Notes under the pieces: model-generated
The model's database searches: none
What the model saw: the letters and a program-made list of their open reading frames with translations, nothing else
What the model was told of the DNA's origin: nothing
Shown here: positions 34,654 through 60,941 of the stretch, in pieces
How the letters are laid out: each line of letters starts with the position of its first letter
Position numbering within the stretch: the stretch's first letter is position 1
Program-made: the position numbers and the translations under genes
Assembly: GCA_021413945.1 (NCBI GenBank)
Contig: JAIOPK010000017.1
Coordinates: 1 to 64,000, forward strand
Length of the DNA: 64,000 nucleotides
Direction: 5' to 3'
Source of the DNA: Candidatus Uhrbacteria bacterium
GTDB taxonomy: Bacteria; Patescibacteriota; Patescibacteriia; 2-12-FULL-60-25

Positions 34654-37600
34654 CTACAGTGCGACCGTCGTTGAAGCGCTCTCCGCTTCCGGTACGATTG
34701 GGGCTTCTACGACAGGATCGGTGCTTGTCGGAACAACCACTGCCGGCGCTGATACAGGCTCAGCTGTTGAAGTTTCAATGGTATCGGTCGTACTCGACGG
34801 CGCAATGAAACCCGTCGGCAAACCCGTGATCGGATCAACGGTTGCATAGGTTCCATCCGACATGCGCATAACATCCGAGGCAGTCGTCGCCTCCACGCGC
34901 CAGGCAAACACCACGTCATGATCCTCGGTTTCCGACAAAATGATCTCAAAACCCGTATCCGTGTAGCTATCCGTCCACCAACCGCCGCGTGTCGATCCGC
35001 GCGGAGTCACCTGTACATTCGGATACGCACCAAGCGAAGGGAACTCAATACGAACCTTCTTGGAACCGGCCGTGATCGTCGCAAAACCCTGTTTTCCTTG
35101 GCTAACGACAATTTGAGAGGAAACGACGGGTGCGACAGCCGGCGCGGGTGCCGCGACCTCATTCTTATTCACCCAATAACCCGGATTCACAAACACTTCA
35201 ATCTTGTCGATGTTGGCATTCTCAAAGTCTTCAAGAGCAAGACCGATGATAGGGCCAGTATGGATAGCCTTGGCGGCAACGCCGGGGATGGAAGTCGGGG
35301 AAAGAGGATCTCCTGCCTTGATGGCACCGTTGATATTGGAGACTTTGGTCGGAACACGACCGGAGAGGGCGATGGGATAGGTTGAGGTAGCAGGTCGTCC
35401 TGCGATGAAGGCGGGACGTGTTGAGACGATACCGAGGAGCATCTGCTCGGTATTCATGGAACGTTGGACGTGTGTTCGGCCTGAATCGGAAACAATGACG
35501 AGATCACCAGGTTCAAGCTCATCAGGTGAATAGTAGCGTTCGGCAAAGTCATACGTATCCATGCTCATGAAACCTGCGGCATTGGTGGAGATATAGGTAG
35601 AGGTCGGATCATCGGCGTTCACGAACAAATACCAATCATTCTGGATACCTCCGCCCTTAAGGCTCGGGAAGAAACGTCCTCCGACATGGAGATCGTTCAT
35701 GATCGACACGTTACCGCTGTCATCGACTTGAATCTGTCCTGTCGGACCGAACGCAAGCCCTGCCCAGAAGCCGACGCTGACGAAGACTTGAGCGGTGCCT
35801 GTGGCGGAGGCGCTTTCGAGAGCATAGCCGAGAATCATGCCTGGTTGAGTTGCTTTCATCGCATAGCCGGGGACATCGGAGGAGACGAGAGCGTCTCCAA
35901 CATTGATTGGACCGTTGTTTGTTGAGAACTTCACGGGAACTCGACCGGCAAGAGCAACTTTGGTGCCACCAGACCAGCCAAGGACAAAGCCTGGATCTGT
36001 GGAAACGATACCGATGACTTTAGAATCATAGGCGACTCCGGTACTGCGCATGACCGTGGCTGTCGATGAAGCGTCGAGAACGAGGACGTCTCCTGCTTCT
36101 GATGTGCCGGTGACGGAATACATTTCAGCGATGTCAAAGGCGTTTGAGATGACGGCACCATCGGCCATGATGGAGGCGCCGACATTGGTCGGACAGGTCT
36201 GGCCCGTACTTGTGTCGTCGATACAGAGGCCGCCGAAGGTGGCGGAAGAGGCGTAGGTGAGGACCATGGAGTAGTTGGCAGAACCTGTGGCGGAGGCGTT
36301 GGAGCCGACGGTGAGTTGGTCGATGTAGGCACCCCAATTCTGTCCGCCGGCGTCGGCGGCGCGATTGCTAAAGATGGAAGTAGGTAACGTGCTCGATGCA
36401 ACCACGGACAAACCTCCGGAAATATTCACCGATTGTCCGACCGTCAAACCGCCTTGAAATGATGCATCCTCGCCCTGCAGACTACCGGTAAGGGTTAGTG
36501 CTCCCGCCTCCAACCCACCGACCTCAAGCTGCTGAATATACGCGCCTCCGACATCAAAAACCTGTAATCCACCAGCCGAACTATTTACAACAAGAGCAAA
36601 GCGTCCTTGAACGTAAACGGAAGTCGGACCAGAATCCGTAGCTACAAAACCACGGTGAACCGGCGCAGATGGATTGGAGACATCGATAACTGCCAAGGTA
36701 CTGCCACCGTTATTCGCCACATACGCGTTTCTTCCTTGAACATGCACTCCGTAAGGACCACTTCCTGTCTCCACGGTACTAACGCTCACAGGTGCCGACG
36801 GATCTGTAATATCAATGATTTGAAGGTCGTCATCATTATTATTCACGACATATGCGTAGCTCCCCTGAACAAAGACATCCAAGGAGCCAGCTCCTGTCGC
36901 TACGGTACCCACGCTCGCAGGCGCAGATGGATTGGAGAGATCAAAGATCTCGAGTCCCGTACTGAAACCGACGACATAGAAGTATCTGCCTTGCACAACT
37001 CCCGATGCAGGACCCGAAATAGTCGGGTTCGTACTAACCAGCGATACAGAAAGCGGATTCGAAACATCAAAAACCTGAAAATTGTTAGCGGTCTGGTTCA
37101 CGACATAGGCATACTTGCCATGTACGACGACGGAAACGGGGCCATCTCCTGTTACCGCCGTACTGACGACCACCGGCGACGATGGGTTGGAAACGTCGAT
37201 AATATCCATGCTGTCGCTATTTTGGTTCAGGGTATAGGCATACTGTCCCTGAACATGCATGCCGATAGCGTTCGCTCCCGTCGTAGAAACCGCGCCTACG
37301 CTTACTGGAGAAGACGGATTAGAAATATCGTAGATCTCCAAGCTCTCAAAGCCGGTAGCAGAATCCGCAACATAAGCGAGTCTCCCTTCCACGAAAACGG
37401 AGTACGACTGCACCGGTCCCAAGATGGACCCGATGGCGGAAGTTGGAACACGACCAGGTACGTAAAGCTGTGTAACCGGTGTCGATGTTCCAAATCCGAT
37501 ATTCCCTAAGAATGTCGTTGTGCTGCCAACCAGAAGATCTCCGGAAGCGGATAACGTTAAATCTCCGTTAGTTTTTGCAATAAACCCGTCACCATACAAC

Positions 37601-40600
37601 GTGCTTCCTAGACCCGTTACAAAAGCTCCATTCGTATACACGCTCGATGCCGATCCGATATTTCCGGCGACAAACAAATCGTCGCCCGAAAGCTGGAACG
37701 CCGCATTCATACCGCTAGCCGTTGTCGCACCGATCACGAGGTCGGCTCCGGCTCCCGTCGATGAGTTCTGCCCGATGAGGAAACGGCTCGTTGTCGTATT
37801 GTTCAAGAAAACGAATGGAGCATTCGCTAATGTTGATGAACCGATGGCGATATCCGTGGTCGCGGTCGCATTGCGTACGAAGTCGCCTGCCAAGTTATAC
37901 GTCCAATTCAGATCGGTGGAGGCAGACGACGACAACATATCCGTCGTCGCGATACCGTACCAACCATTTGCCCCGTTATTACCAGCCTTCAGATAAGCCT
38001 GCGTACCGGATGTCGCCGAGTTGGTACGGAAATAGATACTTCCTTGAGTAGCATAAACAACGCCCTCAGGAGAGCCTAAGCCGACATGCTGAATAATTTC
38101 CTGACCGGGGCTACGGAGAACCAAAACGGCGGTTGAGGAATTCGTACTCGCATTTTCAATCTGAATGGCGCCGTGAATCGACGTATCCCCTCCATCAAGA
38201 TCGTTCAAAAGAATTTTAGACTGTGTATTTCCAACGCCGCCGGCGCCGTTAAGTAACAAAGAATATTGATTTGTATCGTGGTTATACAGCATCAACGTTC
38301 CGGAAACACTTAATGAGCTTGTAACGCTATTCGTCATTGAAAACAAACTGACGTCGTTACCCGTGGTACCTCGTGCCATCGCGATACCGCGACCCGAGGA
38401 TGATGTTGCGATAGACAAACCGATACTCTGGTCGATAGCCGCACCATAGGTAGGCACCGTAATTCTGAATGCGGTCGACGTAGTCTGTGAAGCTAGATTC
38501 ATTGTCCCCGTAGTATTGAGAGCCCCGATGACGCTTAACGTTCCCGTCACACTTGAGCTCGCAGCGACAAATCCGCCAAAGAACTGAGCCGTTGTTGTGG
38601 TAAAACTTCCACGAGCCGTAACGCTCTGAAGCGTGTCGCTTCCAATTGTTCCACAATTTGTACCATTTGAAAGACAGACATTGATTCCCGCAACGGAAAG
38701 GCCCCCTGAAAACTCTCCACGTGTAGATGAGACCGCGTAAACAAATGTCGAGGTCGTATTTGTAGATCCAACCGCCAAAGAACCAACGCTATACAAACCA
38801 AACGCACCTATATTCAAACCGGAATGGATATTGAGCGATCCCCCAATATCAACATCATTCATGACATTAAGAACTCCTGTTTGAAGAGCGCCAATGCGAG
38901 CATTCGCAAAATCTGCGCCACCCATATCGTAAATATAGGCACCAGTACCATCCCCTATATAGAGATAACGTCCAGCAACATGAACACCGCCGTTCGAAAT
39001 AGTAAGCGATGCTCGTGACAAAGGATTCGTTGAACTTGTGACGTCTATGACATGGAGCGTAGTCGCGGCAGAGACATAGAGAAGGTTATCTGCGATGAAC
39101 ATGTCTCCAGATCCGTTCCCCAGAGCGAACGTGGAATCAAGGACCGGATTTGTAGAGCTTGAGATGTCATAGATATTCAAAGTCGTATTAGAGGAGAGGT
39201 ACAGGAAGCGTCCGGATACGGCCAAGCTTTGCGCTGTAGATCCTGCGATCTGTGCTAATACGATAGGACTCGTAGGATTTGAAACATCATAAATGTTCAC
39301 CTTATTACCACCGCCGAGACTAACAAACGCATACGAGCCTTGTACAACGATATCACTACCCGTACTGGTAGCGACCGTAGACACAAGACGCGGATTAGCA
39401 GGGTCTGCAACATCGACAATATCAAAGGAATCACTATCAACAGAGTAAAGATAATGTCCGGAAACAACACAATCTTCACACGCGACGTTGCTAAGCGTAC
39501 CTACAAGGACGGGTGTAGATGGACTGCGAATATCATAAATTTGAAGAGGAGATGATTGTGCCGCTGTATAGAGATAGTTGCCTGCAACATAGACGCCGCC
39601 ACTGTTACTCCCACCCGTAGCAATCGTCTTAACGATCTCTGGGAATTTAGGGTCTGAGATATCAATAATACTGACAAGTGCATTTGCAGGTTGAGATGCG
39701 TACAAATATTTACCTGAAACATACATATTTGTAACACTGCCTGTTGTCGTTGCCTTGCTGATAAGATTAAAGAAATCTCCAGGAGAAGAATATTCTGTAG
39801 ACGCGACTGTACGAGAAGAAAGATATCCAATCGTACTCGTGCCAACACTTTCAAATGATCCAGTTGACGCACCAAAATTTAATCGAGAGGTTCTTACAAT
39901 ACCTCCTGTAAACAAATTCGTACCACTCGCACTATTCCAAAACATCTGCGATGTCGTCACACTCGTACCTGTGGCGGATGTAAAAGCGAGACTCGTGGAA
40001 AATAAGCCGGTACTTGTGCTAAACGTCGATGTCGTATTCCCAAAGTAACCATTATATCGTAGAGATACGGAACCAAGCGTTACGCCAATATCCGACTGCG
40101 GAGTAACAAATCCTCCCGATGCGTTGATCGTAAGATTTCCGTCGTTCTTGTTAATATAACCGTTTCCGTAATACGTTGAACCGCTTCCGGCGATAAACGC
40201 ACCATTTGTGTACACAGATGAAGCGGATCCGATATTGCCGGCGGTAAAAAGATCATCCCCGGTCAACTGGAACAAGGTGTTCATTCCCGAAGCCGTTGCC
40301 GCTCCGATGACAAGATCGGCACCCGCGCCGGTTGATGAATTTCGTCCAATGATCAGCCGAGATGTCGTCGTGTTATTCAAGAAAACAAATGCGGAATTTC
40401 CAAGTGTCGATGAGCCAATCGCGATGTCAGTCGTACCCGTAGCATTCCGAACAAAGTCTCCTGCAAGATTGTAGGTCCAGTTGAGATCGGTTGAGCCGCT
40501 GGTCGCACAATTCGTGCCGTCAGCCAGACAGACAGAAACAAATGTAAGCGCTCCGGAACCGTTTGTTCCAATAACGGTCGATGATGCTCCATCAGCAAAT

Positions 40601-43600
40601 GGCAAAATATAACTGACGATATTGGTCGTGCTCGGAGCTTCAAGGCTGATGATGCCACCTCCGACAGATGTAAAACGTAATCTCGGTTGGTTCGTTGATC
40701 CGGACGGGTTGATATAGACATTGCCCGGATTACCGAAGGCGGAATCACCGGGAGTCAGAATAACATCACCTCCCGGAGTTCCTGCGAGGGCGTCGCCCGC
40801 CGTGATTTCAACATCACCCGCGGCATTCGTCGGATCGTCCCCCGCACGAATGATGATCGATTCTTGTCCGATGACACCGTCTGCCGTAATTAAGAGATTT
40901 CCTTCCATCTGACGAACATAACCGTCGCCATAAACCGTCGGACCGGAATTACCAAGAACTAACTCGGCATTGGAATAGATGGAGGAGGCGGTTCCAATAT
41001 TTCCCTCGACATACAGATCATCGCCCGAGAGTTGAAACTCATCGATCCAGCCGGAAGATGTCGTCGCACCAATAACAAGATCAGCTCCTGCCCCGGACAA
41101 TGGGTTCTGTCCAATAAGGAAGCGACTCGTCGTTGTGTTATTCAAGAAAGCAAACGGTGCATTAGCGAGCGTTGATGAACCGATAGCAATATCCGTCGTC
41201 GGCGTCGCATTGCGGACAAAGTCTCCGGCAAGATTGAAGGTCCAGTTGAGATCCGAACCCAAACAATTTGTCCCATTCGCCAGACAGACCGAAACTCCGT
41301 TCACCAGCACATCCGTTGCGATACGTGCTGTTCCCGAAGCATAAATATCGCGGAACGAATTTGCAGCAGAACCAATATCAAACGCATTGTTTGTATCCGG
41401 CAACAGGTTCACATGAAGATTCATGTTTGCACCGCTTCCGCCGCCAATAGGAAGTTTGGTAACACTGCCAGCAGTCGTATTAGCGACCCACATATGACTG
41501 CCATCAAAAACAATACCGTTCGGACCATCACCGACCGCTGTGGTTGCCACAACGGCGTTTGTAGAAATATCAATTCTTGAAACATTATCAGAGCCCGTAT
41601 TCACGACCCAGATTTGACGACCATCAAACGCCACGTAGGAAGGAGCCGTTCCGACGGTCGTCGTCGCAACAACGGCGTTTGTCGTGACATCAATCTTGGA
41701 GACATCTTCCGAGATGGCATTTGAAACCCACACATGACTACCGTCGTACACAACACCAAACGGACCATCACCCACCGGAATAGTGGCTACAACCGTAGCT
41801 GGCCCGGGATCAATCTTGGAAACATTGTCAGATGCCGCATTGGCGACCCAGACATACTCGCCATCATAGGCGACCATGCGCGGACCCGATCCAACCGTAA
41901 CCGTTGCCGCGACGACACCCGTGAGACTATTGATTTTGGAAACCGTGCCATCGGCAATATTGCTAACCCAGACAAAATTGCCTGCAACGGCGATACCGAA
42001 GGGAGAAGTACCTACCGTCGTCGTCGCAACAACGGTGTTCGTCGTGACATCGACCTTGGAAACATTGCTCGAGCTATTGTTCACGACCCAAAGATATTGG
42101 CCATCAAACGCAACCCCTTGCGGACTCGTTCCCACAGGCAAGGTTGCAACCACAGAATTGAAGAACGGATCAATCTTGGAAACCGTGTTGCCCGTTGAAT
42201 TTGCATTCCAAATATAAGCGCCATCAAACGCGATACCTGTTGGACCGGTTCCAACGGTCGTTGTGGCATGGGCACCTCCATAGATGGAGTTGTCTAAAAT
42301 GGGAGTTGTGAACCAACGATTCAAATGAGGGAGATCCGTTCGGCTGAACGAAAAAATATTTTCACTAGCAGACAACGTCAGTCTGCCATTTGTTTTTGAG
42401 ATAAGACCGTCACCAAATATCGTGGTACCGGTACCCGCTATGAATGCGCCATTCGTATAAATAGACGATGCCGAGCCAATGTTCCCTGCGACAAACAGAT
42501 CATCGCCAGTGAGCTGGAAGGCACTATTCATGCCGCTCGAAGTCGTCGCGCCGATCACAAGATCCGCACCCGCTCCTGTAGATGAGTTCTGCCCGATAAT
42601 AAAGCGGCTTGTCGTCGTGTTATTCAAGAACACGAACGGTGCATTCCCGATGGTTGATGAACCAATCGCGATATCTGTCGTTGCAGTTGCATTACGAACG
42701 AAATCTCCGCCGACATTGAATGTCCAATTCAGATCTACGCTAGATGCGACCTGACAATTCGTTCCATTCGCCAAACAAACAGCCTGTCCATTCACAAAGA
42801 CGGCTGTAGAAGTAACAGTGTTTGCCGAAAGAGTAAGCAAGTTCAATGTCGATCCGGTCGAGTTGGTGAAGTTAAGCGAAGTAATGGTCCCTGTCGTAGA
42901 GAGAAGATTGATCGCGAAGAGATTCGTCGAGAAGAGATTCGTCGTTGTTGCATTCGTTCCTGTGCCATTGGTGAACGTGATGCCACCCAAAGTCGATATT
43001 CCGGTGACATTGAGCGTCCCCGTCGCCGTGATATTCGACGCGGTCAGTCCTCCAAAGAGGGAAAGCGTCGTCGTCGTAAAAGCCTCTCGATTCGTAACTG
43101 TTTGCAACGTGTCAGCCTCCGCAACTGAACCGGACGAACAAAAACTCCCATTCGACAGACAGACCCCCTGTCCGGCAATGGTAGCCGTAGCAAAAGAGGC
43201 GATGTTCACCTGAAGATTGGTCGATGTGACCATGGAGGCAAAGATATTCGAGGCATTGAGGAAACTCGTCGTCGCATTTCCCTGTCGATTCACGGAGAAA
43301 ACAGTCGATCCAAGGTCGTTGATACCTCGAAACAAGAAATCATTCGCATTCGATGTACCGTTCGACCGAACATCGAGCGTCGATCGGGTACCCGTAGCCG
43401 CGTTGTTCTCCGTCTGATTCAGCGTAAACAGTGTTTGACCGCCAGAAGCAGTCGAAGAGGCATACATTCCCTGAAGTTGGCGTGCATTGAAGGCTTGAGG
43501 AGCGCTCGCAAAGCGCTTTCTTGGGGTCATTTCACTGTCGGCATTGATCGTGACGCCGAGATAGATCTGATCGGAGTTCCAATTGACCGTGTCGAGCGTG

Positions 43601-43923
43601 TTTTGGGAGCCTCCTCCGACAGAAGTGTCGCCTAAAAGAACCGTGAATAAGCCATTTTGGACGTTAACCGTAAGTGCTGTCGGTGAACCAACGGTTCCGG
43701 ATGCAGTCCAAAGGCGAGTTCCTGCAGTGGAAGCGTCGTATAACGAAAAGATGATCGAATAGTTTCCATCGGCCAAAGGGAAGCCGGAAGCATCCATGAG
43801 ACGGGCTTGGTAGTTGATCTGGTTATTGATCTGGGGGGCGGCGAGAACAGGCGAGAACGACAACATCCACCCACCAAGAAGGAGGGCTAGGGTCAAGAAA
43901 AAAGAACGTGCGAAACGGGGCAT
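34654..43923 (-). CDS. Giant secreted modular surface protein A (3089 aa, three seven-bladed propellers)
   Basis: A Sec signal peptide (residues 1-28, ending SPVLA) precedes a conserved head (about 29-265: INNQINYQARLMDASGFPLADG...). Then come repeats of a roughly 125-residue module starting LNWTxNxxGDFVRNAT and containing IGSSTLANAPFVFLNNTTTSRF (four copies at about 42.36-42.74, 40.88-41.26, 40.10-40.49 and 37.54-37.92 kb). One YVTN/FDG-type propeller (about 544-824, seven VAFDGxxxWVxN blades) and two LVIVD-type propellers (about 1381-1674 and 2154-2454, seven blades each) follow. Recurrent CLANGTNC motifs may form local disulfides. The C-terminal 560 residues are shared with proteins B and C (FDIAEMYSVTGTSEAGDVLVL; YDFAERYYSPDELEPGDLVIVS). 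No LPXTG or terminal membrane helix is seen. A role in adhesion or as a surface sheath is inferred. Confidence 0.88.
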   Translation of the reverse strand: MPRFARSFFLTLALLLGGWMLSFSPVLAAPQINNQINYQARLMDASGFPLADGNYSIIFSLYDASTAGTRLWTASGTVGSPTALTVNVQNGLFTVLLGDTSVGGGSQNTLDTVNWNSDQIYLGVTINADSEMTPRKRFASAPQAFNARQLQGMYASSTASGGQTLFTLNQTENNAATGTRSTLDVRSNGTSNANDFLFRGINDLGSTVFSVNRQGNATTSFLNASNIFASMVTSTNLQVNIASFATATIAGQGVCLSNGSFCSSGSVAEADTLQTVTNREAFTTTTLSLFGGLTASNITATGTLNVTGISTLGGITFTNGTGTNATTTNLFSTNLFAINLLSTTGTITSLNFTNSTGSTLNLLTLSANTVTSTAVFVNGQAVCLANGTNCQVASSVDLNWTFNVGGDFVRNATATTDIAIGSSTIGNAPFVFLNNTTTSRFIIGQNSSTGAGADLVIGATTSSGMNSAFQLTGDDLFVAGNIGSASSIYTNGAFIAGTGTTIFGDGLISKTNGRLTLSASENIFSFSRTDLPHLNRWFTTPILDNSIYGGAHATTTVGTGPTGIAFDGAYIWNANSTGNTVSKIDPFFNSVVATLPVGTSPQGVAFDGQYLWVVNNSSSNVSKVDVTTNTVVATTTVGTSPFGIAVAGNFVWVSNIADGTVSKINSLTGVVAATVTVGSGPRMVAYDGEYVWVANAASDNVSKIDPGPATVVATIPVGDGPFGVVYDGSHVWVSNAISEDVSKIDVTTNAVVATTTVGTAPSYVAFDGRQIWVVNTGSDNVSRIDISTNAVVATTAVGDGPNGIVFDGSHMWVANTTAGSVTKLPIGGGSGANMNLHVNLLPDTNNAFDIGSAANSFRDIYASGTARIATDVLVNGVSVCLANGTNCLGSDLNWTFNLAGDFVRNATPTTDIAIGSSTLANAPFAFLNNTTTSRFLIGQNPLSGAGADLVIGATTSSGWIDEFQLSGDDLYVEGNIGTASSIYSNAELVLGNSGPTVYGDGYVRQMEGNLLITADGVIGQESIIIRAGDDPTNAAGDVEITAGDALAGTPGGDVILTPGDSAFGNPGNVYINPSGSTNQPRLRFTSVGGGIISLEAPSTTNIVSYILPFADGASSTVIGTNGSGALTFVSVCLADGTNCATSGSTDLNWTYNLAGDFVRNATGTTDIAIGSSTLGNSAFVFLNNTTTSRLIIGRNSSTGAGADLVIGAATASGMNTLFQLTGDDLFTAGNIGSASSVYTNGAFIAGSGSTYYGNGYINKNDGNLTINASGGFVTPQSDIGVTLGSVSLRYNGYFGNTTSTFSTSTGLFSTSLAFTSATGTSVTTSQMFWNSASGTNLFTGGIVRTSRLNFGASTGSFESVGTSTIGYLSSRTVASTEYSSPGDFFNLISKATTTGSVTNMYVSGKYLYASQPANALVSIIDISDPKFPEIVKTIATGGSNSGGVYVAGNYLYTAAQSSPLQIYDIRSPSTPVLVGTLSNVACEDCVVSGHYLYSVDSDSFDIVDVADPANPRLVSTVATSTGSDIVVQGSYAFVSLGGGNKVNIYDVSNPTSPIVLAQIAGSTAQSLAVSGRFLYLSSNTTLNIYDISSSTNPVLDSTFALGNGSGDMFIADNLLYVSAATTLHVIDVTSSTNPLSRASLTISNGGVHVAGRYLYIGDGTGAYIYDMGGADFANARIGALQTGVLNVMNDVDIGGSLNIHSGLNIGAFGLYSVGSLAVGSTNTTSTFVYAVSSTRGEFSGGLSVAGINVCLSNGTNCGTIGSDTLQSVTARGSFTTTTAQFFGGFVAASSSVTGTLSVIGALNTTGTMNLASQTTSTAFRITVPTYGAAIDQSIGLSIATSSSGRGIAMARGTTGNDVSLFSMTNSVTSSLSVSGTLMLYNHDTNQYSLLLNGAGGVGNTQSKILLNDLDGGDTSIHGAIQIENASTNSSTAVLVLRSPGQEIIQHVGLGSPEGVVYATQGSIYFRTNSATSGTQAYLKAGNNGANGWYGIATTDMLSSSASTDLNWTYNLAGDFVRNATATTDIAIGSSTLANAPFVFLNNTTTSRFLIGQNSSTGAGADLVIGATTASGMNAAFQLSGDDLFVAGNIGSASSVYTNGAFVTGLGSTLYGDGFIAKTNGDLTLSASGDLLVGSTTTFLGNIGFGTSTPVTQLYVPGRVPTSAIGSILGPVQSYSVFVEGRLAYVADSATGFESLEIYDISNPSSPVSVGAVSTTGANAIGMHVQGQYAYTLNQNSDSMDIIDVSNPSSPVVVSTAVTGDGPVSVVVHGKYAYVVNQTANNFQVFDVSNPLSVSLVSTNPTISGPASGVVQGRYFYVVGFSTGLEIFDLSNPSAPASVGTVATGAGSLDVFVQGSYAYVVNNNDDDLQIIDITDPSAPVSVSTVETGSGPYGVHVQGRNAYVANNGGSTLAVIDVSNPSAPVHRGFVATDSGPTSVYVQGRFALVVNSSAGGLQVFDVGGAYIQQLEVGGLEAGALTLTGSLQGEDASFQGGLTVGQSVNISGGLSVVASSTLPTSIFSNRAADAGGQNWGAYIDQLTVGSNASATGSANYSMVLTYASSATFGGLCIDDTSTGQTCPTNVGASIMADGAVISNAFDIAEMYSVTGTSEAGDVLVLDASSTATVMRSTGVAYDSKVIGIVSTDPGFVLGWSGGTKVALAGRVPVKFSTNNGPINVGDALVSSDVPGYAMKATQPGMILGYALESASATGTAQVFVSVGFWAGLAFGPTGQIQVDDSGNVSIMNDLHVGGRFFPSLKGGGIQNDWYLFVNADDPTSTYISTNAAGFMSMDTYDFAERYYSPDELEPGDLVIVSDSGRTHVQRSMNTEQMLLGIVSTRPAFIAGRPATSTYPIALSGRVPTKVSNINGAIKAGDPLSPTSIPGVAAKAIHTGPIIGLALEDFENANIDKIEVFVNPGYWVNKNEVAAPAPAVAPVVSSQIVVSQGKQGFATITAGSKKVRIEFPSLGAYPNVQVTPRGSTRGGWWTDSYTDTGFEIILSETEDHDVVFAWRVEATTASDVMRMSDGTYATVDPITGLPTGFIAPSSTTDTIETSTAEPVSAPAVVVPTSTDPVVEAPIVPEAESASTTVAL

Positions 43924-47000: not shown

Positions 47001-49523
47001 GACAAAAGATAAATTACCTAAACCATCGGTAGAAAGGACCTGTCCGGAACTACCATCCGCATCAGGCAATATCCAGACGCGTGTTGCAACGACACTCGTC
47101 GGTGCACGGAAACCGACGTAGTCGCTACCAAAGGATTGATCCTCTGCCAATCTAAACTCAGGAGGCGCATAACCAAAGCCGCTCTGCAGAACAAGATTTC
47201 CCGTTCTTCCGCCAATAGAAATTCCGGGGCTAAGCGTAATACTTCCTCCATCCGCTACACCAAAACTTGAACCGGCTGTAAGAGTAAAAGTGCCCGCGCT
47301 ACCCGTCCCATATGCCGTACCGGCAGTCATGCTTAGGGATCCGCCATTTCCTGCACCAAAGGTATCTGCACCGGTAAGACTCATGCCTCCACCGCTACCA
47401 TCACCCACGGCTGGCCCTCCCGCAATGTAAACGCCTCCGCCCGCGGCAAACGTGGATGTACCACTCAGACCACCCGTAATCGAGACATACCCACCAGTGC
47501 CATCATTATAACCGGCTCCACCTTGCAAACTTACCGCACTACCGCCTTGAAGCGTAGACGTGCCGTCTCCCGCATAAAATGCGATGTCCCCGGGTATAGC
47601 TAAGTTGGTGTCCGGCGTAGCCTGCACGAGAAGGCTTCCAGTCATCTGCATGAGGAAGCCATAGGTGATCGGAGGGGTAAGCTCCTGCATCCCATCAAGC
47701 TTTTTGATAAATCCATCACCGTAATGCGTTGAGCTTGGTCCAATAACTAACTCGCCATTGGTATATATCGATGAAGCAGATCCGATATTCCCCTCTACGT
47801 ATAAATCATTACCATCCTGTACAAATGCAGAGTTGAGCGAGGTTGTCGGAGCACCAACATGAACATTACCCATCACATTCAATGTACCCGTCACACTCGA
47901 TGAAGCGGCAACAAACCCCCCAAAAAACTGAGCGGTGGTCGTCGTGAACGATCCTCGAGACGTGACGCTCTGAAGCGTATCAGTCTCAGGTCCGGAGCTT
48001 GTACCAGAACCGAGCATATCAACCGTTGCAATGCCGACCCAACTCGACGAACTGCCACTCGTATTCAAATATGCTTGTGTTCCTGATGAGGTATCGTTTC
48101 TAAAATAGATACTTCCGGCAAACCCGCTCACAAGACCATTTGGATGTGATGTTCCAACATTAAGTGTTGCTTGCCCCAAATTGGATCCAAGATTCCATAA
48201 ATGAAGAAGGGAAGATGTGGCATTATTCGTATATTTACGAATAGTCATGGCCGCCTCAGCGCCAAAGCCGGGGTACATGTTGTCATTATCCGTCAGCTCG
48301 AGAAGAGTCGCGTTGGAGCCTGAGTCGCTAACAGAAACATTTAGCTGATTAAACTCGTTCGCATAGTTAATTCTTGCTCCTCCGCTTGTTAAAACATTAT
48401 CAAGATCTTTAGCAAAATTTAATGTTGTATAGGTAACAAATCCAAACTGGTTTAAATTTGTTAAACTAAAACCTTCGGTCCCCGTCGTATGATACGTTAA
48501 TGCCTGAGCAAAATCTGAACTTGCAGGCTGCGGGCCGCGTAACGTGAATGGTGAAGATGTTGAAGTAAGGTAGATATCTGCAGATCCGGTGACATGGAAG
48601 TTGCCTAGCACGGCGAGTGTACCCGTCACACTCGATGAAGCGGCAACAAATCCGCCAAAAAACTGAGCCGTGGTTGTAGTGAACGATCCTCGTGCCGTTA
48701 CGGATTGAAGTGTGTCATTCAAAACCGTTCCAGCCGGACATCCGACGCCGTTTGCAAGACAGACCGCCGATCCCATGACAGTAGCCGTGGCAAAAGAGGC
48801 GATGTTCACCTGAAGATTGGTCGATGTGACCATGGAGGCGAAGATGCTCGAAGCATTGAGGAACGATGTTGTGGCATTTCCCTGTCGATTAACGGAGAAA
48901 ACAGTACTTCCAAGGTCATTGATACCTCGAATGAGGAAGTCATTGGCACTAGAAGTACCGTTCGATCGAACATCGAGCGCAGTTCTCGTTCCTGTCGCAG
49001 AGTTAGCCTCGGTTTGGTTAACGGTGAAGAGTGTCTGACCGCCGGAAGCAGTGCTAGACGCATACATTCCTTGAAGTTGTCTGGCATTGAAGGCTTGAGG
49101 AGCGCTCGCAAAGCGCTTTCTTGGGGTCATTTCACTGTCAGCGTTGATAGTGACGCCAAGATAGAGCTGATCAGAGTTCCAATTGACGGTATCAAGAGTG
49201 TTTTGGGAGCCTCCACCGACGGAGGTATCTCCAAGAAGGACGGTAAACAAGCCATTTTGGACGTTGATGGTCAGAGCGGCTGGTGAGCCGACGGTGCCGG
49301 AGGCTGTCCAAAGACGAGTACCTGCAGTAGAAGCGTCGTATAACGAAAAGATGATCGAATAGTTTCCATCAGCGACAGGGAAGCCGGAAGCATCCATGAG
49401 GCGGGCTTGGTAGTTGATCTGGTTATTGATCTGGGGGGCGGCGAGAACAGGCGAGAACGACAACATCCACCCACCGATGAGGAGGGCTAGGGTCAAGAAA
49501 AAAGAACGTGCGAAACGGGGCAT
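44070..49523 (-). CDS. Giant secreted modular surface protein B (1817 aa, one seven-bladed propeller)
   Basis: Same signal peptide and head as protein A, almost identical at DNA level. A variable middle follows, including a glycine-rich repeat patch (about residues 644-780: GGSAVSLQGGAGYNDG, GGGVYIAGGP, GNGGSLSMTAGTAYG), which may form a beta-solenoid of about 14-residue steps. One YVTN/FDG propeller with seven blades comes next (about 954-1261: GVVFDGSHIWVTD ... GMAFDGSHMWIA). The C-terminal block (about 1291-1817) is shared with A and C. The extreme C-terminus (GLIQGNWGTDGYSDTGFDIIMSQEQTF-type sequence) matches C rather than A. Secreted; no covalent anchor motif is seen. Function as a surface fibre or adhesin is inferred. 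Confidence 0.87.
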   Translation of the reverse strand: MPRFARSFFLTLALLIGGWMLSFSPVLAAPQINNQINYQARLMDASGFPVADGNYSIIFSLYDASTAGTRLWTASGTVGSPAALTINVQNGLFTVLLGDTSVGGGSQNTLDTVNWNSDQLYLGVTINADSEMTPRKRFASAPQAFNARQLQGMYASSTASGGQTLFTVNQTEANSATGTRTALDVRSNGTSSANDFLIRGINDLGSTVFSVNRQGNATTSFLNASSIFASMVTSTNLQVNIASFATATVMGSAVCLANGVGCPAGTVLNDTLQSVTARGSFTTTTAQFFGGFVAASSSVTGTLAVLGNFHVTGSADIYLTSTSSPFTLRGPQPASSDFAQALTYHTTGTEGFSLTNLNQFGFVTYTTLNFAKDLDNVLTSGGARINYANEFNQLNVSVSDSGSNATLLELTDNDNMYPGFGAEAAMTIRKYTNNATSSLLHLWNLGSNLGQATLNVGTSHPNGLVSGFAGSIYFRNDTSSGTQAYLNTSGSSSSWVGIATVDMLGSGTSSGPETDTLQSVTSRGSFTTTTAQFFGGFVAASSSVTGTLNVMGNVHVGAPTTSLNSAFVQDGNDLYVEGNIGSASSIYTNGELVIGPSSTHYGDGFIKKLDGMQELTPPITYGFLMQMTGSLLVQATPDTNLAIPGDIAFYAGDGTSTLQGGSAVSLQGGAGYNDGTGGYVSITGGLSGTSTFAAGGGVYIAGGPAVGDGSGGGMSLTGADTFGAGNGGSLSMTAGTAYGTGSAGTFTLTAGSSFGVADGGSITLSPGISIGGRTGNLVLQSGFGYAPPEFRLAEDQSFGSDYVGFRAPTSVVATRVWILPDADGSSGQVLSTDGLGNLSFVTAGGGSATTTDYNWIYNNANGFVRSATATNDIVLGSTATSTGAPVYFDMQTGTSTVFFGFSTNTNVVIGGTSSTPSGMPLFTLNGNDLLVTGGIGTDTFFASGRADVPYLNRWFTSPLLTQTVYKGGSATTSINGTSPRGVVFDGSHIWVTDYVNGTNNLFKVDPLTNTVVATTTVGAGSGGADGMAFDGKYIWVANGFGSDNNVSKVNPVTNRVEAVVALGGDFLYAQSVAFDGTYIWVTETGTFPSSSVVRKVDPVTNSLVASVPVGVNPYGIAFDGKYLWVANSTDGTLSKIDPVANTVVATTTVGGQPIGVVFDGTSIWVTTNFTNAVVKVNPITNTVITTLPLGGNPQYGAFDGRYLWFGQSASSSVSKIDPTTNSIVETIDLHLFFGNPVGMAFDGSHMWIATPEVASTISKIPVGVGTGYASSSLTVLSLMVNAATGTATGTSNYAATIRYASSSSFGGLCVDDTNSGPTCPTNPGASIVADGAIIANRFDIAEMYSVTGTSEAGDVLVLDASSTATVMRSTGVAYDSKIIGIVSTDPGFILGWNGGSRVALAGRVPVKVSMNSGSIQVGDALVSSDVPGYAMKATQPGMILGYALESVSATGTAQVFVSVGFWAGLAFGPTGQIQVDDSGNVSIMNDLHIGGKLFPSLKGGGIQNDWYLFVNADDPTSTYISTNAAGFMSMDTYDFAERYYSPDELEAGDLVVVSDNGRTHVQRSLNEDQMLLGIVSTRPAFIAGRPATSTYPIALSGRVPTKVSNMNGAIKAGDPLAPTTIPGVAAKAVRSGPIIGLALEDFESANIEKIEVYVNPSYWVNEHEVVTPSVAPEISSETVLSDAKQGYATIAAGSKRVHVSFDSIGAYPNVQVTLRGLIQGNWGTDGYSDTGFDIIMSQEQTFDAYFSWRVEPLHERDRLNLSDGTTAGMDPITGLPYGFTAPTSSPEISVSTPTESISSTSSIETPPSQEIATSTNL

Positions 49524-49678: not shown

Positions 49679-52600
49679 CTATAAAACTGGCGCTTCCTCC
49701 GTTGGCACAACCTCGCTCTGTGCTGGCGTATCAATCAATTCTGTTGGAGGGCTAACAGGTTCAGTAGAAGCTACAACCGGCTCCTCAACAATAGGTTCCG
49801 TGGTCGTAGTCGTACTAAAGCCGAACGGTAGACCCGTCACCGGATCCATATCGGCAGTCGTACCATCCGACAAATTCAGACGATCGCTCCCTTGTAACGG
49901 TTCAACCTGCCATGAGAAGTAGGTATCAAACGTCTGTTCCTGCGACATAATGATGTCGAATCCGGTATCGCTATACCCATCCGTGCCCCAATTGCCTTGA
50001 ATCAACCCTCGCGGAGTCACCTGAACAAAGGGATAAGCGGCAATCGTATCGAATGCGATATGAACTCGCTTGGAACCTGCGGAAATCATACCGACGCCGC
50101 GTCGCATAACTCCCGTAGGAGAACTTACGACCGTTTGGTTAATCACTGTTTGTTGATTTGTCTCAGCAACATTCGTCCACCAACCCGGATTCACAAACAC
50201 TTCGATCTTGTCGATGTTGGCACTCTCAAAGTCTTCAAGAGCAAGACCGATGATAGGACCGGTATGAATCGCCTTGGCGGCAACTCCGGGGACGGAAGTC
50301 GGAGAAAGAGGGTCGCCAGCCTTGATCGCGCCATTGATATTGGAGACTTTGGTAGGAACACGACCGGATAAAGCGATTGGATAGGTAGAAGTGGCAGGTC
50401 GTCCTGCGATAAAGGCGGGACGTGTCGAGACGATACCAAGGAGCATCTGCTCGGTATTCATGGAACGTTGGACGTGTGTTCGGCCTGAATCGGAAACAAT
50501 GACGAGATCACCTGGTTCAAGCTCGTCAGGCGAATAGTAACGTTCCGCAAAGTCATACGTATCCATGCTCATGAATCCGGCGGCATTCGTTGAGATATAG
50601 GTAGAGGTCGGATCATCGGCATTCACGAACAAGTACCAATCGTTCTGGATACCGCCGCCCTTAAGAGAAGGGAAGAGACGTCCTCCGACATGGAGATCGT
50701 TCATGATGGAGACGTTGCCGGAGTCATCGACTTGAATCTGACCTGTCGGACCAAAGGCAAGTCCTGCCCAGAAGCCGACGCTGACGAAGACCTGTGCCGT
50801 ACCTGTGGCGGAGGCGGATTCGAGAGCATAGCCAAGGATCATGCCTGGTTGGGTCGCTTTCATCGCGTAGCCTGGGACATCCGATGAGACAAGGGCATCA
50901 CCGACAGCAATCGAACCATTGTTCATGGAGACCTTCGTAGGGACGCGACCGGCAAGAGCGACTTTGGTGCCGCCAGACCAGCCAAGGACAAATCCGGGGT
51001 CTGTGGAAACGATACCGATGACCTTGGAATCATAGGCGACGCCTGTGCTTCGCATGACCGTGGCTGTCGATGAAGCGTCGAGAACAAGGACGTCTCCTGC
51101 TTCTGATGTGCCGGTGACGGAATACATTTCAGCGATGTCAAAGGCGTTTGAGATGACGGCACCATCGGCCATGATGGAAGCGCCGACATTGGTCGGACAG
51201 GTCTGGCCTGTGCTTGTGTCGTCGATACAGAGGCCACCGAAGGTGGCGGAAGAGGCATAGGTGAGGACCATGGAGTAGTTGGCGGTGCCTGTGGCAGAGG
51301 CGTTGGAGCCGACGGTGAGTTGGTCGATGTATGCGCCCCAGGCAGTTCCGCCGGTATTTGCCAATGTATTTCGAATTGTTACGGCAGAAGTCGACGTCGA
51401 TGTTTGAACATTCAACATTCCGGCAAACGAGGAAGCGGTACCTGTCGCGGTAGACGAGATCGGGCCTCGTGAAAGAACGCCGTTCGTTCCAACCTGCAAC
51501 CCGCCTTGTACCGTAAGTTGTTTCGCCATTTCTGCAGCATTTCGAACCATGAGTGTCCCAAATTCACCTGTGCCCGCCTGAATACCGTCCGTTTTTACGC
51601 CACCGACGTCTACGACGGACAAAACGCCCGTAGTCGCACCAACAAAGGTGTCACTATGAATCGTATAGACATAGCTTCCATACTTCGTCAGTTTTTGCAT
51701 CTGCTCTGTAGGCGCAGTCGGTTCAACCATTTCTAGTTGGGAAAGCGTTACAGGACCCGTGGCTCTGGAGATATCCCAAAAATGGATATAGTCGTTGTTC
51801 GGTGAGAAGAAGTCCCTGGCGCGTCTGATTAAATAATCCCCCGCAATAAATCCGCCTGTACAGTCATAACTTGGACATGTGCTCGTAGCAATGGCGTAAG
51901 GTGCGGTCGGGTCGGAAACATCAATGGTAACGAACTGAGTCGTAGACAGTGATACATAGGCGTATCTACCCTGCTGAAGAACGTCTTGCGGAGCATTGGC
52001 AACGGCGACGGAACCCGTAATAATCGGTTGATTCGGCTTGCGAACATCGACGATATAGAGTCGATTGCCCGTGCCTTCCGTGATATAGGCAAAACCGTCA
52101 CGAACTTTCACATCCGTAGGCGAACCAAGTACGTTAATCATCGATGAAACGAGTGTCGGCGATCCAGGCGTGGAAATATCGACGATATAGAGCGCGGAAC
52201 TCGCGGATGCCACCGCAAATACATAATTACCCGACATGTCGATTCCTGAAATAGAATCATTGGTAAGAACGAGATCGCCAACACTTGTTACGTTCGCAAA
52301 ATTAGATACATCAAGGATACGAATGCCTCTTTGTGACGCGTTAAACTGTCCTCCTAAAGCGATAACCGAGCCATTGGTGACAAACTTGGAAGTACCAAAT
52401 CCATCCAAAGTTGACGAAGCGGTTATAAATGGAAAGTTCGGATCGGTAATATCGATGATTTCAAGACCGTTGTTACCGCCGATGTAATAGAGATAGCGGT
52501 CGCTGGCAAAAATACCGATTGGGTTTCCACCGACCAAGGTTGAGGTAGAAACAATATCCGCATCCGGAAGCGATCCGGACGGAGGCTCGGCTGTTACACC

Positions 52601-55600
52601 GCGACCTGAAGTAATCAGGCTCGTCGCCGTGACGCTGCGGAAGTAACCATCCCATGGCAAGAAGGAGGAACCGAGCGTCCGTCCCACGGAATCCGGCACG
52701 ATATCGCTCGCGATACTTCCGCCAATACTGATGAGATCACCCGAGTCATCGCCAAGCGTCATCGGACCAAGAGCCTCAAAGACATCCGTCGCCTGAACTC
52801 TCGCCGCCTTTACATATCCTGAATAGGTCGAGGTCGTATTGGTTGCGGAAACGAATATCGATCCGCCGGAAGAAATACCTTCTAAACCAACCTGTAAACC
52901 GCCGTTCAAAATTGACTGGCCCTCGACCGTAAACAAGTCACCGACTCTCACCGAGCCCGCTTGAAGCGAATGCGCCGTAAGGCTCTGTAGTTCCGTACCC
53001 TTCATGTCGTAAATCTGTAAATAACCATCCGGCGTACCTCCGCCAGACAAAATCCCGTAACGGCCAAAGATGGAAAACTGTCTGACCGAACCCGGCGAAG
53101 TCTCAAAATCTAAAACTTGTACAGGAGCCGTGCTTGAAGAGACGTCCAGAACAACGACATCTGTTGTACTACTGGAAACATAGGCATACCTTCCGGAGAC
53201 GGAAACCATACTAACGCTGGGAATCGTTGTTGAAGCGGCGACAGAAACACTAGCACCATTAGACACATCCAAAATCCAAAACGCGTTCGCTGATTCTTCC
53301 GTTACATATGCGTAGCGATCTTTAACGGCAATATTCGTCGGTGTCGTTGTAAATGGAGTCGCCGTAGACAAGAGAACCGGATTACTCGGATTCACGACAT
53401 CGTAAACAGCAAGTCTGTCCGGAGTAGTGGCCAAAATATACGCGCGTCCGTTTTGGACGGTAAATTTAGCGGAATCGATGGCAAACGTGCTAAGCAAGTT
53501 ACCCTTTAAATCATAAATATTAAAACTTGCAATCGTGACTGTATAGAGAACATTACCATCAATCTGGATAAAGCTGCCTACTCCGACGAGTGTATCGACT
53601 AGCGCGGGAGCAGATTTATCAGCGACGTCATACACGTAGACATCATTTGTGCCCGTTCCAACGTAGATTTTCCCACCGACATAAGCGATGGAAACCGGTG
53701 TTGCCGGTACATCGATAAAACCGGTGCTTGTCGGATGGGTCGGATCGCTAATATCGACGATATAGAGTGGTCCGCTATTACTTAACACATATGCATAGCT
53801 CCCAACGACAACGAACCTGGAAGCCTTGGGAATCACTCCGGTAGATCCGAGCAGTGTTGGCGAAATATCGGAAGAAATGAATTGCTCTAAAGCATTCGTG
53901 ACACGCGTACCGCTCGTCGATTTCACATTCAAATATCCATTTGTCTTACTGATCATTCCATCGCTAAAGAACGTCGTACCCGTACCGGCAACAAAAGCCC
54001 CGTTCGTGTAGATCGATGAAGCCGATCCGATATTCCCGGCGACAAAGAGATCATCGCCCGTGAGCTGGAATGCCGGACTCATGCCGCTCGATGTTGCCGC
54101 ACCGATCACAAGATCCGCACCGGCTCCTGTCGATGAGTTGCGTCCGATGAGAAAGCGGCTCGTCGTCGTATTATTCAGGAATACAAACGGGGAATTTGCT
54201 AACGTCGATGAACCGATCGCAATATCCGTAGTTCCCGTCGCATTGCGGACAAAATCTCCGGCAAGATTGTAGGTCCAGTTGAGATCTGTTGAAGTAGCCG
54301 TACAATTAGTTCCATTTGCAAGACAAACGCTCTGCCCATTCACCGTAAGGTTGGTCGTTGTAACGGAGGAAAAGAATCCACGCCAAGCTTGTCCGATCTG
54401 ACCGAGCGAATATGTATCATTCGTCGTAGGCATCAAGTTGGAATCGATCGTTGACGTGAAGATCACGCGATCTTGGTTTGTGCTGTTTCCTAAGAAAATA
54501 TTTCCATTAACCGTGGAAGTACCTGTAATCGTCTCATCATTAAAGACGGTAAGGTTCGTAATATTTGCCTGGTTGCTGTTCAACGTTGTTACCGTACCGC
54601 TCGTTGCGATAAACGTTGTTGCCGAAGCATTTGTTGCAAACAAACTTGAATAGACGCCTGAAACCGAGCGGATAGTACCTGATGCATAAATATTGCGTAC
54701 AGAGGTTACAGATGAACCTAAATCATAAACGTTATTTGCATTGACATGAAGATCAGACGCAATCTCGTCTTGAAATACAATAATACCCGGATTAGAGCCT
54801 GCTGCGCCTAACATAACACTGCTTCCCGGAGCGCTGACAAACACTTTGCCTCCTCCTGTAGAAGTCAGAACAAGGTGACTGGAAGCTTCAACCGTTAAGA
54901 TACCGTTATCTTTGTTGATATATCCGTCTCCATAATGCGTCGAAGCATTTCCTGCTATGAATTCTCCATTCGTAAACACCGACGATGCAGAACCTATATT
55001 GCCGGCTACAAACAAATCATCTCCGGAGAGTTGAAAAAGTGCATGCATGTTCGACGACGTCGTCGCACCAATCACAAGATCCGCACCAGCACCCGTAGAG
55101 GAATTCTGGCCGACAAGGAATCGACTCGTCGTCGTGTTGTTCAAGAAAACAAATGGCGCATTCGCAAGCGTTGATGAACCGATAGCGATATCGGTCGTCG
55201 CCGTTGCATTGCGGACAAAATCTCCGGCTTGGTTGAGGGTCCAATTCAAATCCGTAGAAGATCCTCCTGTCGATGAACAAAAGCTCCCATTCGACAGACA
55301 AACCCCCTGTCCGGCAATGGTAGCCGTAGCAAAACTCGCAATATTCACCTGAAGGTTGGTCGATGTGACCATGGAGGCGAAGATGTTTGAAGCATTGAGG
55401 AACGATGTTGTGGCATTTCCCTGTCGATTAACGGAGAAAACAGTGCTTCCAAGGTCGTTGATACCTCGAATGAGGAAGTCATTGGCACTAGAAGTACCGT
55501 TCGATCGGACATCGAGCGCAGTTCTCGTTCCTGTCGCAGAGTTAGCCTCGGTTTGGTTAACGGTGAAGAGTGTCTGACCGCCTGAAGCAGTGCTAGAGGC

Positions 55601-56074
55601 ATACATTCCCTGCAATTGTCGTGCATTGAAGGCTTGAGGGGCGGAAGCAAAGCGCTTTCTTGGGGTCATTTCACTGTCGGCATTGATCGTGACGCCAAGA
55701 TAGAGCTGGTCGGAGTTCCAATTCACCGTGTCGAGCGTGTTTTGGGAACCGCCTCCGACGGAAGTATCTCCAAGAAGGACCGTAAACAAGCCATTTTGGA
55801 CATTAACCGTAAGCGCAGTCGGTGAACCAACGGTTCCGGATGCAGTCCAAAGACGAGTTCCTGCTGTTGAAGCGTCGTATAACGAAAAGATGATCGAATA
55901 GTTTCCATCGGCGACAGGGAAGCCGGAGGCATCCATGAGGCGGGCTTGATAGTTGATTTGGTTGTTGATCTGGGGGGCGGCAAGCGAAGTCTGGATTTGA
56001 AAGACAAAAACGCAAACGAACCCGCCGAGTATAGCGAGTGCTGATCGAAAAAAAGTACGTAAGGAAACGTTCAT
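49679..56074 (-). CDS. Giant secreted modular surface protein C (2131 aa, two LVIVD propellers)
   Basis: It has a different signal peptide from A and B (VSLRTFFRSALAILGGFVCVF, cleaved near SLA) but the same head immediately after (INNQINYQARLMD). Two copies of the LNWT/GDFVRNAT module lie at about 54.88-55.26 and 53.91-54.30 kb. Two LVIVD-type propellers of about seven blades each follow (about residues 738-1025 and 1171-1475: VSGRYAYVSSSTTDVVVLDVSSSTAP; VQ/KVRDGFAYITEGTGNRLYIVDV). The C-terminal 550 residues are shared with A and B. The tail is Val/Pro/Glu/Thr-rich. The first of the three paralogs in transcription order, it lies downstream of an AT-rich interval. Function is inferred as for A and B. 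Confidence 0.87.
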   Translation of the reverse strand: MNVSLRTFFRSALAILGGFVCVFVFQIQTSLAAPQINNQINYQARLMDASGFPVADGNYSIIFSLYDASTAGTRLWTASGTVGSPTALTVNVQNGLFTVLLGDTSVGGGSQNTLDTVNWNSDQLYLGVTINADSEMTPRKRFASAPQAFNARQLQGMYASSTASGGQTLFTVNQTEANSATGTRTALDVRSNGTSSANDFLIRGINDLGSTVFSVNRQGNATTSFLNASNIFASMVTSTNLQVNIASFATATIAGQGVCLSNGSFCSSTGGSSTDLNWTLNQAGDFVRNATATTDIAIGSSTLANAPFVFLNNTTTSRFLVGQNSSTGAGADLVIGATTSSNMHALFQLSGDDLFVAGNIGSASSVFTNGEFIAGNASTHYGDGYINKDNGILTVEASSHLVLTSTGGGKVFVSAPGSSVMLGAAGSNPGIIVFQDEIASDLHVNANNVYDLGSSVTSVRNIYASGTIRSVSGVYSSLFATNASATTFIATSGTVTTLNSNQANITNLTVFNDETITGTSTVNGNIFLGNSTNQDRVIFTSTIDSNLMPTTNDTYSLGQIGQAWRGFFSSVTTTNLTVNGQSVCLANGTNCTATSTDLNWTYNLAGDFVRNATGTTDIAIGSSTLANSPFVFLNNTTTSRFLIGRNSSTGAGADLVIGAATSSGMSPAFQLTGDDLFVAGNIGSASSIYTNGAFVAGTGTTFFSDGMISKTNGYLNVKSTSGTRVTNALEQFISSDISPTLLGSTGVIPKASRFVVVGSYAYVLSNSGPLYIVDISDPTHPTSTGFIDVPATPVSIAYVGGKIYVGTGTNDVYVYDVADKSAPALVDTLVGVGSFIQIDGNVLYTVTIASFNIYDLKGNLLSTFAIDSAKFTVQNGRAYILATTPDRLAVYDVVNPSNPVLLSTATPFTTTPTNIAVKDRYAYVTEESANAFWILDVSNGASVSVAASTTIPSVSMVSVSGRYAYVSSSTTDVVVLDVSSSTAPVQVLDFETSPGSVRQFSIFGRYGILSGGGTPDGYLQIYDMKGTELQSLTAHSLQAGSVRVGDLFTVEGQSILNGGLQVGLEGISSGGSIFVSATNTTSTYSGYVKAARVQATDVFEALGPMTLGDDSGDLISIGGSIASDIVPDSVGRTLGSSFLPWDGYFRSVTATSLITSGRGVTAEPPSGSLPDADIVSTSTLVGGNPIGIFASDRYLYYIGGNNGLEIIDITDPNFPFITASSTLDGFGTSKFVTNGSVIALGGQFNASQRGIRILDVSNFANVTSVGDLVLTNDSISGIDMSGNYVFAVASASSALYIVDISTPGSPTLVSSMINVLGSPTDVKVRDGFAYITEGTGNRLYIVDVRKPNQPIITGSVAVANAPQDVLQQGRYAYVSLSTTQFVTIDVSDPTAPYAIATSTCPSYDCTGGFIAGDYLIRRARDFFSPNNDYIHFWDISRATGPVTLSQLEMVEPTAPTEQMQKLTKYGSYVYTIHSDTFVGATTGVLSVVDVGGVKTDGIQAGTGEFGTLMVRNAAEMAKQLTVQGGLQVGTNGVLSRGPISSTATGTASSFAGMLNVQTSTSTSAVTIRNTLANTGGTAWGAYIDQLTVGSNASATGTANYSMVLTYASSATFGGLCIDDTSTGQTCPTNVGASIMADGAVISNAFDIAEMYSVTGTSEAGDVLVLDASSTATVMRSTGVAYDSKVIGIVSTDPGFVLGWSGGTKVALAGRVPTKVSMNNGSIAVGDALVSSDVPGYAMKATQPGMILGYALESASATGTAQVFVSVGFWAGLAFGPTGQIQVDDSGNVSIMNDLHVGGRLFPSLKGGGIQNDWYLFVNADDPTSTYISTNAAGFMSMDTYDFAERYYSPDELEPGDLVIVSDSGRTHVQRSMNTEQMLLGIVSTRPAFIAGRPATSTYPIALSGRVPTKVSNINGAIKAGDPLSPTSVPGVAAKAIHTGPIIGLALEDFESANIDKIEVFVNPGWWTNVAETNQQTVINQTVVSSPTGVMRRGVGMISAGSKRVHIAFDTIAAYPFVQVTPRGLIQGNWGTDGYSDTGFDIIMSQEQTFDTYFSWQVEPLQGSDRLNLSDGTTADMDPVTGLPFGFSTTTTTEPIVEEPVVASTEPVSPPTELIDTPAQSEVVPTEEAPVL

Positions 56075-60940: not shown

Positions 60941-60941
60941 A

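Follow-up and report, generated by a model that had tools for sequence, protein, structure and literature searches.

Apart from type IV pili and a few cultured lineages, little is known of how most Patescibacteria recognize other cells and hold on to them. The stretch analysed here (the window) is the first 64,000 nt of contig JAIOPK010000017.1 from the genome of a Candidatus Uhrbacteria bacterium (1.05 Mb, 23 contigs). It carries three tandem genes for giant secreted proteins, termed giants A, B, and C, which have a common N-terminal head and a common C-terminal block (the tail). Giant modular surface proteins are already known in Patescibacteria (PMC11809585, PMC13059738). In the ABY1-class Patescibacterium (Patescibacterium danicum), the FhaB/DUF2341-annotated proteins have 4939-6025 amino acids (aa), and reshuffling was proposed for them (PMC11809585). 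Like giants A, B, and C, these proteins belong to the same phylum, are giant and modular, were inferred to be exported adhesins, and have a proposed domain reshuffling. However, they are defined by FhaB/DUF2341 and length (>4000 aa), and the part of that report available describes neither a head/tail family nor a chaperone module, propellers, or a conserved cluster. The very large surface proteins of Absconditicoccaceae (PMC13059738) are also longer than 1500 aa, have signal peptides or transmembrane (TM) segments, and were proposed to act in host recognition; nevertheless, they come from another class and contain Fn3, concanavalin, fibrinogen, and integrin-type domains, and the available part of the report makes no link to tail fibres.

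The C-terminal domain of phi29 gp12, the pre-neck appendage protein, serves as an intramolecular chaperone and is removed by cleavage (autochaperone, PF11962). The giants resemble it in the fold of the second tail module (Z about 15), the Asp at the cleaved N-terminus, the D-x-A-E motif, and the place after a beta-rich stalk. They differ from it in that they are cellular and secreted, their modules form a tandem pair and do not stand at the extreme C-terminus, P1 is not Ser, and the genome has no PF11962 sequence match. Moreover, the module is common by sequence to the giants and to jumbo-phage virion proteins (PA5oct gp359 and others from Campylobacter phages, Atu_ph07, and Phosso), and gp359 also has stalk-type repeats in common with the giants. 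The jumbo-phage proteins, in contrast, are about 400-660 aa long among those read, lack propellers, and carry a single module at the very C-terminus. The Methanosarcina surface-layer protein (1l0q) has only the YVTN propeller in common with A and B. No published description of the head/tail family, its chaperone modules, propeller insertions, or gene cluster was found in the open-access literature.

We propose, with a probability of about 0.5, that the giants are phage-tail-fibre-like, probably trimeric surface fibres with exchangeable propellers, likely for cell attachment. An earlier annotation made from the DNA alone (the original prediction) had described three tandem giant secreted open reading frames (ORFs), and its coordinates were exact. 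The three ORFs are intact, span 21 kb, lie on the minus strand, and have no internal stops:

34654..43923, minus strand: giant A, 3089 aa; signal peptide, head, YVTN propeller, two LVIVD propellers, two gp12-like modules, lectin-like domain, Ser/Thr/Pro-rich end
44070..49523, minus strand: giant B, 1817 aa; head, glycine-rich patch, YVTN propeller, tail as in A
49679..56074, minus strand: giant C, 2131 aa; head, two LVIVD propellers, tail as in A and B

A signal peptide was found in each giant and is its sole hydrophobic segment. The signal peptides of A and B are nearly identical (MPRFARSFFLTLAL..VLAAPQ), and C has a different one. When the hydrophobicity of each giant was examined, no C-terminal TM segment was found in A, B, or C. 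Furthermore, no Pfam match at E<=1 was obtained in A, B, or C for a two-partner secretion (TPS) or haemagglutination domain of the FhaB type, for SLH or another S-layer domain, or for the YadA-type beta-barrel anchor of trimeric autotransporter adhesins, for which a C-terminal hydrophobic segment was missing as well.

As predicted, the three giants have a common head and C-terminal block with differing interiors. The heads are pairwise 97-98% identical in aa, with a synonymous divergence (dS) of 0.4-0.7 and a ratio of nonsynonymous to synonymous divergence (dN/dS) of 0.025-0.06; the corresponding values for the C-terminal blocks are 80-85%, 0.55-1.4, and 0.10-0.22. Because synonymous divergence is high and dN/dS is low, A, B, and C are by these measures old paralogues under constraint, not assembly duplicates, and the head is on the same measures under strong purifying selection. 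Common heads, common tails, and repeated modules in a genome of 23 contigs do invite mis-assembly, and collapse of repeats was the objection that the original prediction had raised against itself. Nevertheless, we give an assembly collapse or chimera a negligible chance: it is excluded by the dS of 0.4-1.4 between copies, by a relative from an independent assembly (L057) with A's domain order of YVTN, LVIVD, LVIVD, and by tandem giants elsewhere (two per slot in each of L058, L074, and L133, compared with three in the window).

The C-terminal block is composed of two tandem beta-rich gp12-like modules and then a tailspike-tip/H-type-lectin-like domain:

45129..45530, minus strand: gp12-like module 1 of B, motif F-D1339-I-A-E
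35755-36156 (A) and 50759-51160 (C), minus strand: gp12-like module 1 of A and C, by sequence comparison
44550..44948, minus strand: gp12-like module 2 of B, motif Y-D1534-F-A-E, matching 3suc/3gqh
35176-35574 (A) and 50180-50578 (C), minus strand: gp12-like module 2 of A and C, by sequence comparison
44256..44483, minus strand: C-terminal tailspike-tip/H-type-lectin-like domain of B, by structure comparison of the tail model
34876-35103 (A) and 49886-50113 (C), minus strand: last domain of A and C

The B tail (489 aa) was modelled with AlphaFold2 (AF2) from a 69-sequence alignment, with a mean predicted local distance difference test score (pLDDT) of 84. When this model was compared by VIA-align, module 2 fell on the phi29 gp12 C-terminal domain with a Z of 15.4 for 3suc (2.1 A over 118 residues) and 14.7 for 3gqh (1.7 A over 108 residues). 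The 69-tail sequence profile, searched against PDB sequences, also gave 3gqh as the top match (E 1.9e-4); the alignment began at the first residue of the 3gqh chain, D692 in entry numbering, and placed DFAE on DFAE. The Asp of D-x-A-E corresponds to the residue with which gp12 begins after cleavage (the P1' position). Among the aligned sequences, the motif was conserved in module 1 (D 64/64, A 65/65, E 65/65) and in module 2 (D 68/69, A 69/69, E 69/69). The last domain of the tail model gave a Z of 7-9 to the tailspike ends of Pam1, LKA1, and Sf6, to pyocin fibre tips, and to H-type lectins, which is no more than suggestive of a tailspike-tip/H-type-lectin-like domain with putative sugar binding.

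A BFVD search with the tail model yielded many phage proteins with the same fold, some of them annotated as preneck appendage protein or as tail fibre protein. In the jumbo phage PA5oct, the C-terminus of gp359 is a gp12-like module (hhalign E 1.6e-13, 35% identity). This protein was detected in the virion by mass spectrometry, and its gene adjoins a long-tail-fibre gene. Moreover, a stalk-repeat profile built only from the bacterial giants matched the gp359 repeats at 51 bits and none of 200 shuffled copies, with the caveat of composition bias in such repeats. The tail model was also matched in BFVD by A0A481YT87 (Marseillevirus LCMAC101) and A0A7M3UP28 (Pyramimonas orientalis virus).

Several points weigh against our proposal. 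P1 is Phe in module 1 and Tyr in module 2 of A, B, and C, so that the Ser of gp12 is not conserved, and without it self-cleavage may have been lost. PF11962 (Peptidase_G2) had no match at E<=10 in the bacterium's own genome, and its cut-off was passed in the tails of only three Uhrbacteria relatives (L071, L078, and L065; 49.5, 40.6, and 33.4 bits). Since the P1 Ser is not conserved and PF11962 has no match in the own genome, we regard the module as a homologue of the domain and do not count it as a proven Peptidase_G2 family member. Unlike gp12, the modules are duplicated and a further domain comes after them. In addition, the trimerisation of the stalk is inferred from homology, and attachment is a putative role. 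For the other phage chaperone, the Peptidase_S74 endosialidase type (PF13884), no match at E<=1 was found in A, B, or C, and one relative carries it.

The non-conserved P1 Ser would also fit a trimeric fibre without autoproteolysis, in which the gp12-like modules would act as structural clamps: they would trimerise the stalk and remain on it, and D-x-A-E would be retained only for folding. Two further observations point in this direction: in the structure comparison of the tail model, related folds were found in non-cleaving phage capsid decoration proteins (8qsy, 9ocb, and 5wk1), and another conserved domain comes after the modules. However, both modules almost invariably have the Asp that forms the new N-terminus of gp12, as well as the Glu three positions further on, and we consider this alternative unlikely, though still a serious one.

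The interiors contain six seven-bladed propellers in total, distributed as the original prediction had stated, together with other repeated modules:

41449..42303, minus strand: YVTN seven-bladed propeller of A (about residues 541-825), by profile matches and blade motifs
38884..39771, minus strand: LVIVD seven-bladed propeller 1 of A, by Pfam match and blade motifs
36529..37431, minus strand: LVIVD seven-bladed propeller 2 of A, by Pfam match and blade motifs
45729..46631, minus strand: YVTN seven-bladed propeller of B, by profile matches and blade motifs
52970..53857, minus strand: LVIVD seven-bladed propeller 1 of C, by Pfam match and blade motifs
51575..52552, minus strand: LVIVD seven-bladed propeller 2 of C, by Pfam match and blade motifs
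47151..47588 (approximate limits), minus strand: glycine-rich repeat patch of B, read directly from the sequence
42373..42729, minus strand: LNWT/GDFVRNAT module A-1, by sequence comparison
40888-41247, 40126-40482, and 37552-37908, minus strand: other LNWT modules of A, by sequence comparison
54890..55246, minus strand: LNWT module C-1, by sequence comparison
53924-54280, minus strand: LNWT module C-2, by sequence comparison
46656-46964, minus strand: divergent LNWT module of B, by sequence comparison

A motif scan gave seven blade motifs in every propeller, and those of the YVTN propeller of A are spaced at exactly 40 residues. Pfam LVIVD (PF08309) scored 193.6 bits in A and 120 bits in C (cut-off 20.2), and TIGR02276 (YVTN) scored 132 bits in A and 60.8 bits in B (cut-off 27.85). 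The YVTN propellers of A and B matched the surface-layer YVTN domain of PDB 1l0q with E values of 2.5e-39 and 2.2e-27, respectively. Weak similarity of the propellers to lactonase, Vgb lyase, and hydrazine synthase beta profiles was also found. It could speak for ligand-capture or enzymatic surface proteins, whose propellers would have sugars, metals, or small molecules as ligands or would show lyase or lactonase activity, with a role in nutrition and not in adhesion. However, the scores were far below the family cut-offs and the match is to generic repeat propellers; we regard such a role as very improbable.

The glycine-rich patch of B, as predicted, is real, and a shorter one was read in A. 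The LNWT/GDFVRNAT module occurs in four copies in A, two in C, and one divergent copy in B, and a C-x6-C motif (CLxNGxxC) recurs in the giants. The recurrence of this module and of CLANGTNC was therefore predicted correctly, but not its position between propellers throughout, since module C-1 stands directly after the head region. When folded as a monomer, the LNWT module gave an uninformative model (pLDDT 50-65). Two kinds of candidate features overlapping the giants were rejected: antisense ORFs such as 36607-37509 (plus strand) were judged chance open frames, and an ARAGORN tRNA-Val at 52555-52642 (minus strand), within the giant C coding sequence, is most likely a false positive.

The head is an Ig/macroglobulin-like beta sandwich:

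43468..43833, minus strand: head of A, residues 31-152
49068..49433, minus strand: head of B, residues 31-152
55607..55972, minus strand: head of C, residues 35-156, the copy used for folding (pLDDT about 95)

The model of the C copy is confident; nevertheless, structure comparison gave no clear relative, the best Z being 5.6 among many Ig/macroglobulin-like folds, and tblastn gave no match for the head in phages. Neither the head nor the tail family was found in Pfam or NCBIfam. They occur together in 47 ORFs among the loci fetched, in line with the predicted independent family, and their interiors range from 144 to 3076 aa. The tail carriers in the genome collection were almost only Candidatus Uhrbacteria and Patescibacteria metagenome-assembled genomes, which places the bacterium near Uhrbacteria. 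In an even sample of 240 patescibacterial genomes, the tail type was present in 67 and the head type in 60; in the class sample, the tail was present in 45 of 115. The longest open frames had 6561 aa (tail search) and 7471 aa (head search; G229 C32:63875-64228). Propellers are just one kind of interior (LVIVD in 5 of 21 giants scanned), and they come and go among relatives.

Contig C2 of the same genome encodes a fourth giant (4824 aa), whose head and tail are of the same type; judged by eye, its interior is a stalk only, without a propeller signature. Directly upstream of it (L009 7138-9230), dockerin-like and cohesin-like (plus TM) genes were observed. Both matches are weak and under the Pfam cut-offs, and cohesin-dockerin surface anchoring of this giant is possible. 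Open frames of about 258-287 aa that match the second tail module alone recur in many Patescibacteria (e.g., G120, G164, G207, G227, G263, and G284) and are possible standalone relatives.

The giants lie in a gene cluster that is, by sequence comparison, conserved across Uhrbacteria, which the original prediction did not include. The order on the same strand is w307, w331, w1097, giant(s), and w826:

60942..61865, minus strand: w307, secreted protein; conserved upstream gene
59993..60988, minus strand: w331, signal peptide, Ig-like domain weakly like WxLIP_PGBD, C-terminal TM; conserved upstream gene
56626..59919, minus strand: w1097, signal peptide, Fn3, CarboxypepD_reg, hydrophobic segments; conserved directly upstream of the giant
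32144..34624, minus strand: w826, about 13 TM-like segments (weakly O-antigen-ligase-like) and C-terminal TPRs; conserved downstream gene

A complete head and no less than 3 kb of upstream sequence were available in 36 loci; w1097 was directly upstream of the giant in 33 of them, and all three upstream genes were present in 27. Downstream, w826 was found within 3 kb in 60 of the 72 loci with enough sequence (median gap 97 bases). The loci were picked by their tails, and the sample is therefore biased to the tail family and not to the neighbour genes. Phylum-wide matches of w1097 (177/240) were dropped as a measure of cluster spread, being mostly generic Fn3/CarboxypepD repeats. No family was found for w307. 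The WxLIP_PGBD match of w331 was 17.5 bits (cut-off 27.3), and 7 of its 16 homologues matched at E<=0.1 (best 5e-4). A PDB profile search with the membrane half of w826 gave no useful relative; its O-antigen-ligase link (hhalign E 0.002, probability 14%), with no Wzy_C Pfam match, is a lead only. A promoter and terminator scan gave counts equal to those of shuffles and hence no operon limits.

Some observations in and around the cluster are recorded here. A terminator-like hairpin with a T-run at 56593-56611 (minus strand), in the gap between w1097 and giant C, is no more than a hint that the giants have their own transcript, since the total counts equal those of shuffles. Two w1097 homologues (G002 C3:2253-5480 and G022 C4:4013-7237) have one in-frame TGA each (sequencing error, pseudogene, or recoding), and an open frame of 9474 aa with a CarboxypepD_reg-type match was seen in another patescibacterial genome (G192 C11:66536-67627). 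Elsewhere in the window, an unusual leucyl-tRNA synthetase gene with an internal NUDIX match (58.6 bits, residues 411-539) lies at 18148-21096 (minus strand), and two adjacent T4SS_pilin-family genes lie at 14243-15142 and 15054-15863 (minus strand).

Three paralogues of large Ser/Thr-rich proteins in a conserved envelope-type gene cluster, with a YVTN propeller closest to the Methanosarcina surface-layer protein 1l0q, could instead form a cell-envelope layer or sheath that protects or shapes the cell rather than binding other cells. However, the variable interior length and the gain and loss of propellers among relatives are unlike a lattice-forming coat, the Pfam scans gave no SLH or other S-layer domain, and the tail is tail-fibre-like; we regard a coat as improbable.

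Returning to the attachment fibre, we envisage that Sec exports A, B, and C as surface fibres laid out like a phage tail fibre or tail spike, with the N-terminal Ig-like head followed by a long beta-rich stalk into which the propellers are inserted. The gp12-like modules would most likely register three chains and drive stalk trimerisation, as in phages; by this analysis, the giants are more likely to be trimeric fibres than loose strings of propellers. After trimer formation, the modules may cut themselves at D-x-A-E. The original phi29 gp12 paper is said to have suggested similar maturation for some bacterial adhesins. In phage T5, removal of an analogous chaperone is needed before the fibre blocks phage adsorption (PMC4690869), and cleavage could matter for the giants too because the T5 chaperone must come off. 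The TM-anchored WxLIP-like w331 and the Fn3/CarboxypepD_reg membrane protein w1097 are the probable anchors of the fibre at the cell surface, and w826, the polytopic TPR protein, probably serves it, e.g., by modifying the Ser/Thr-rich chains. The exchangeable propellers would serve as binding heads, whose most likely target is a host or neighbouring cell. Our confidence falls from the trimeric stalk to surface display via the anchored neighbours, then to propellers as binding heads for cells, and finally to self-cleavage after assembly.

The original prediction had seen a dedicated surface-display system that must rely on a partner for secretion or assembly. It agrees with the finding that a small patescibacterial genome encodes secreted surface proteins which are modular and domain-shuffled, and it missed the phage chaperone/autocleavage-type nature of the tail. 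The need for a partner fits the conserved cluster with membrane-anchored neighbours. More tentatively, the giants may belong to a widespread patescibacterial class of cell-encoded trimeric giant fibres with gp12-type autochaperone maturation and exchangeable propeller heads, which the Uhrbacteria cluster would display as a host-recognition device. The conserved cluster, with its named fibre, defined assembly domain, and candidate anchor proteins, offers concrete targets for imaging, tagging, and expression. It also suggests that a single fibre-building module is common to cells and jumbo phages and that its cellular version bears propellers.

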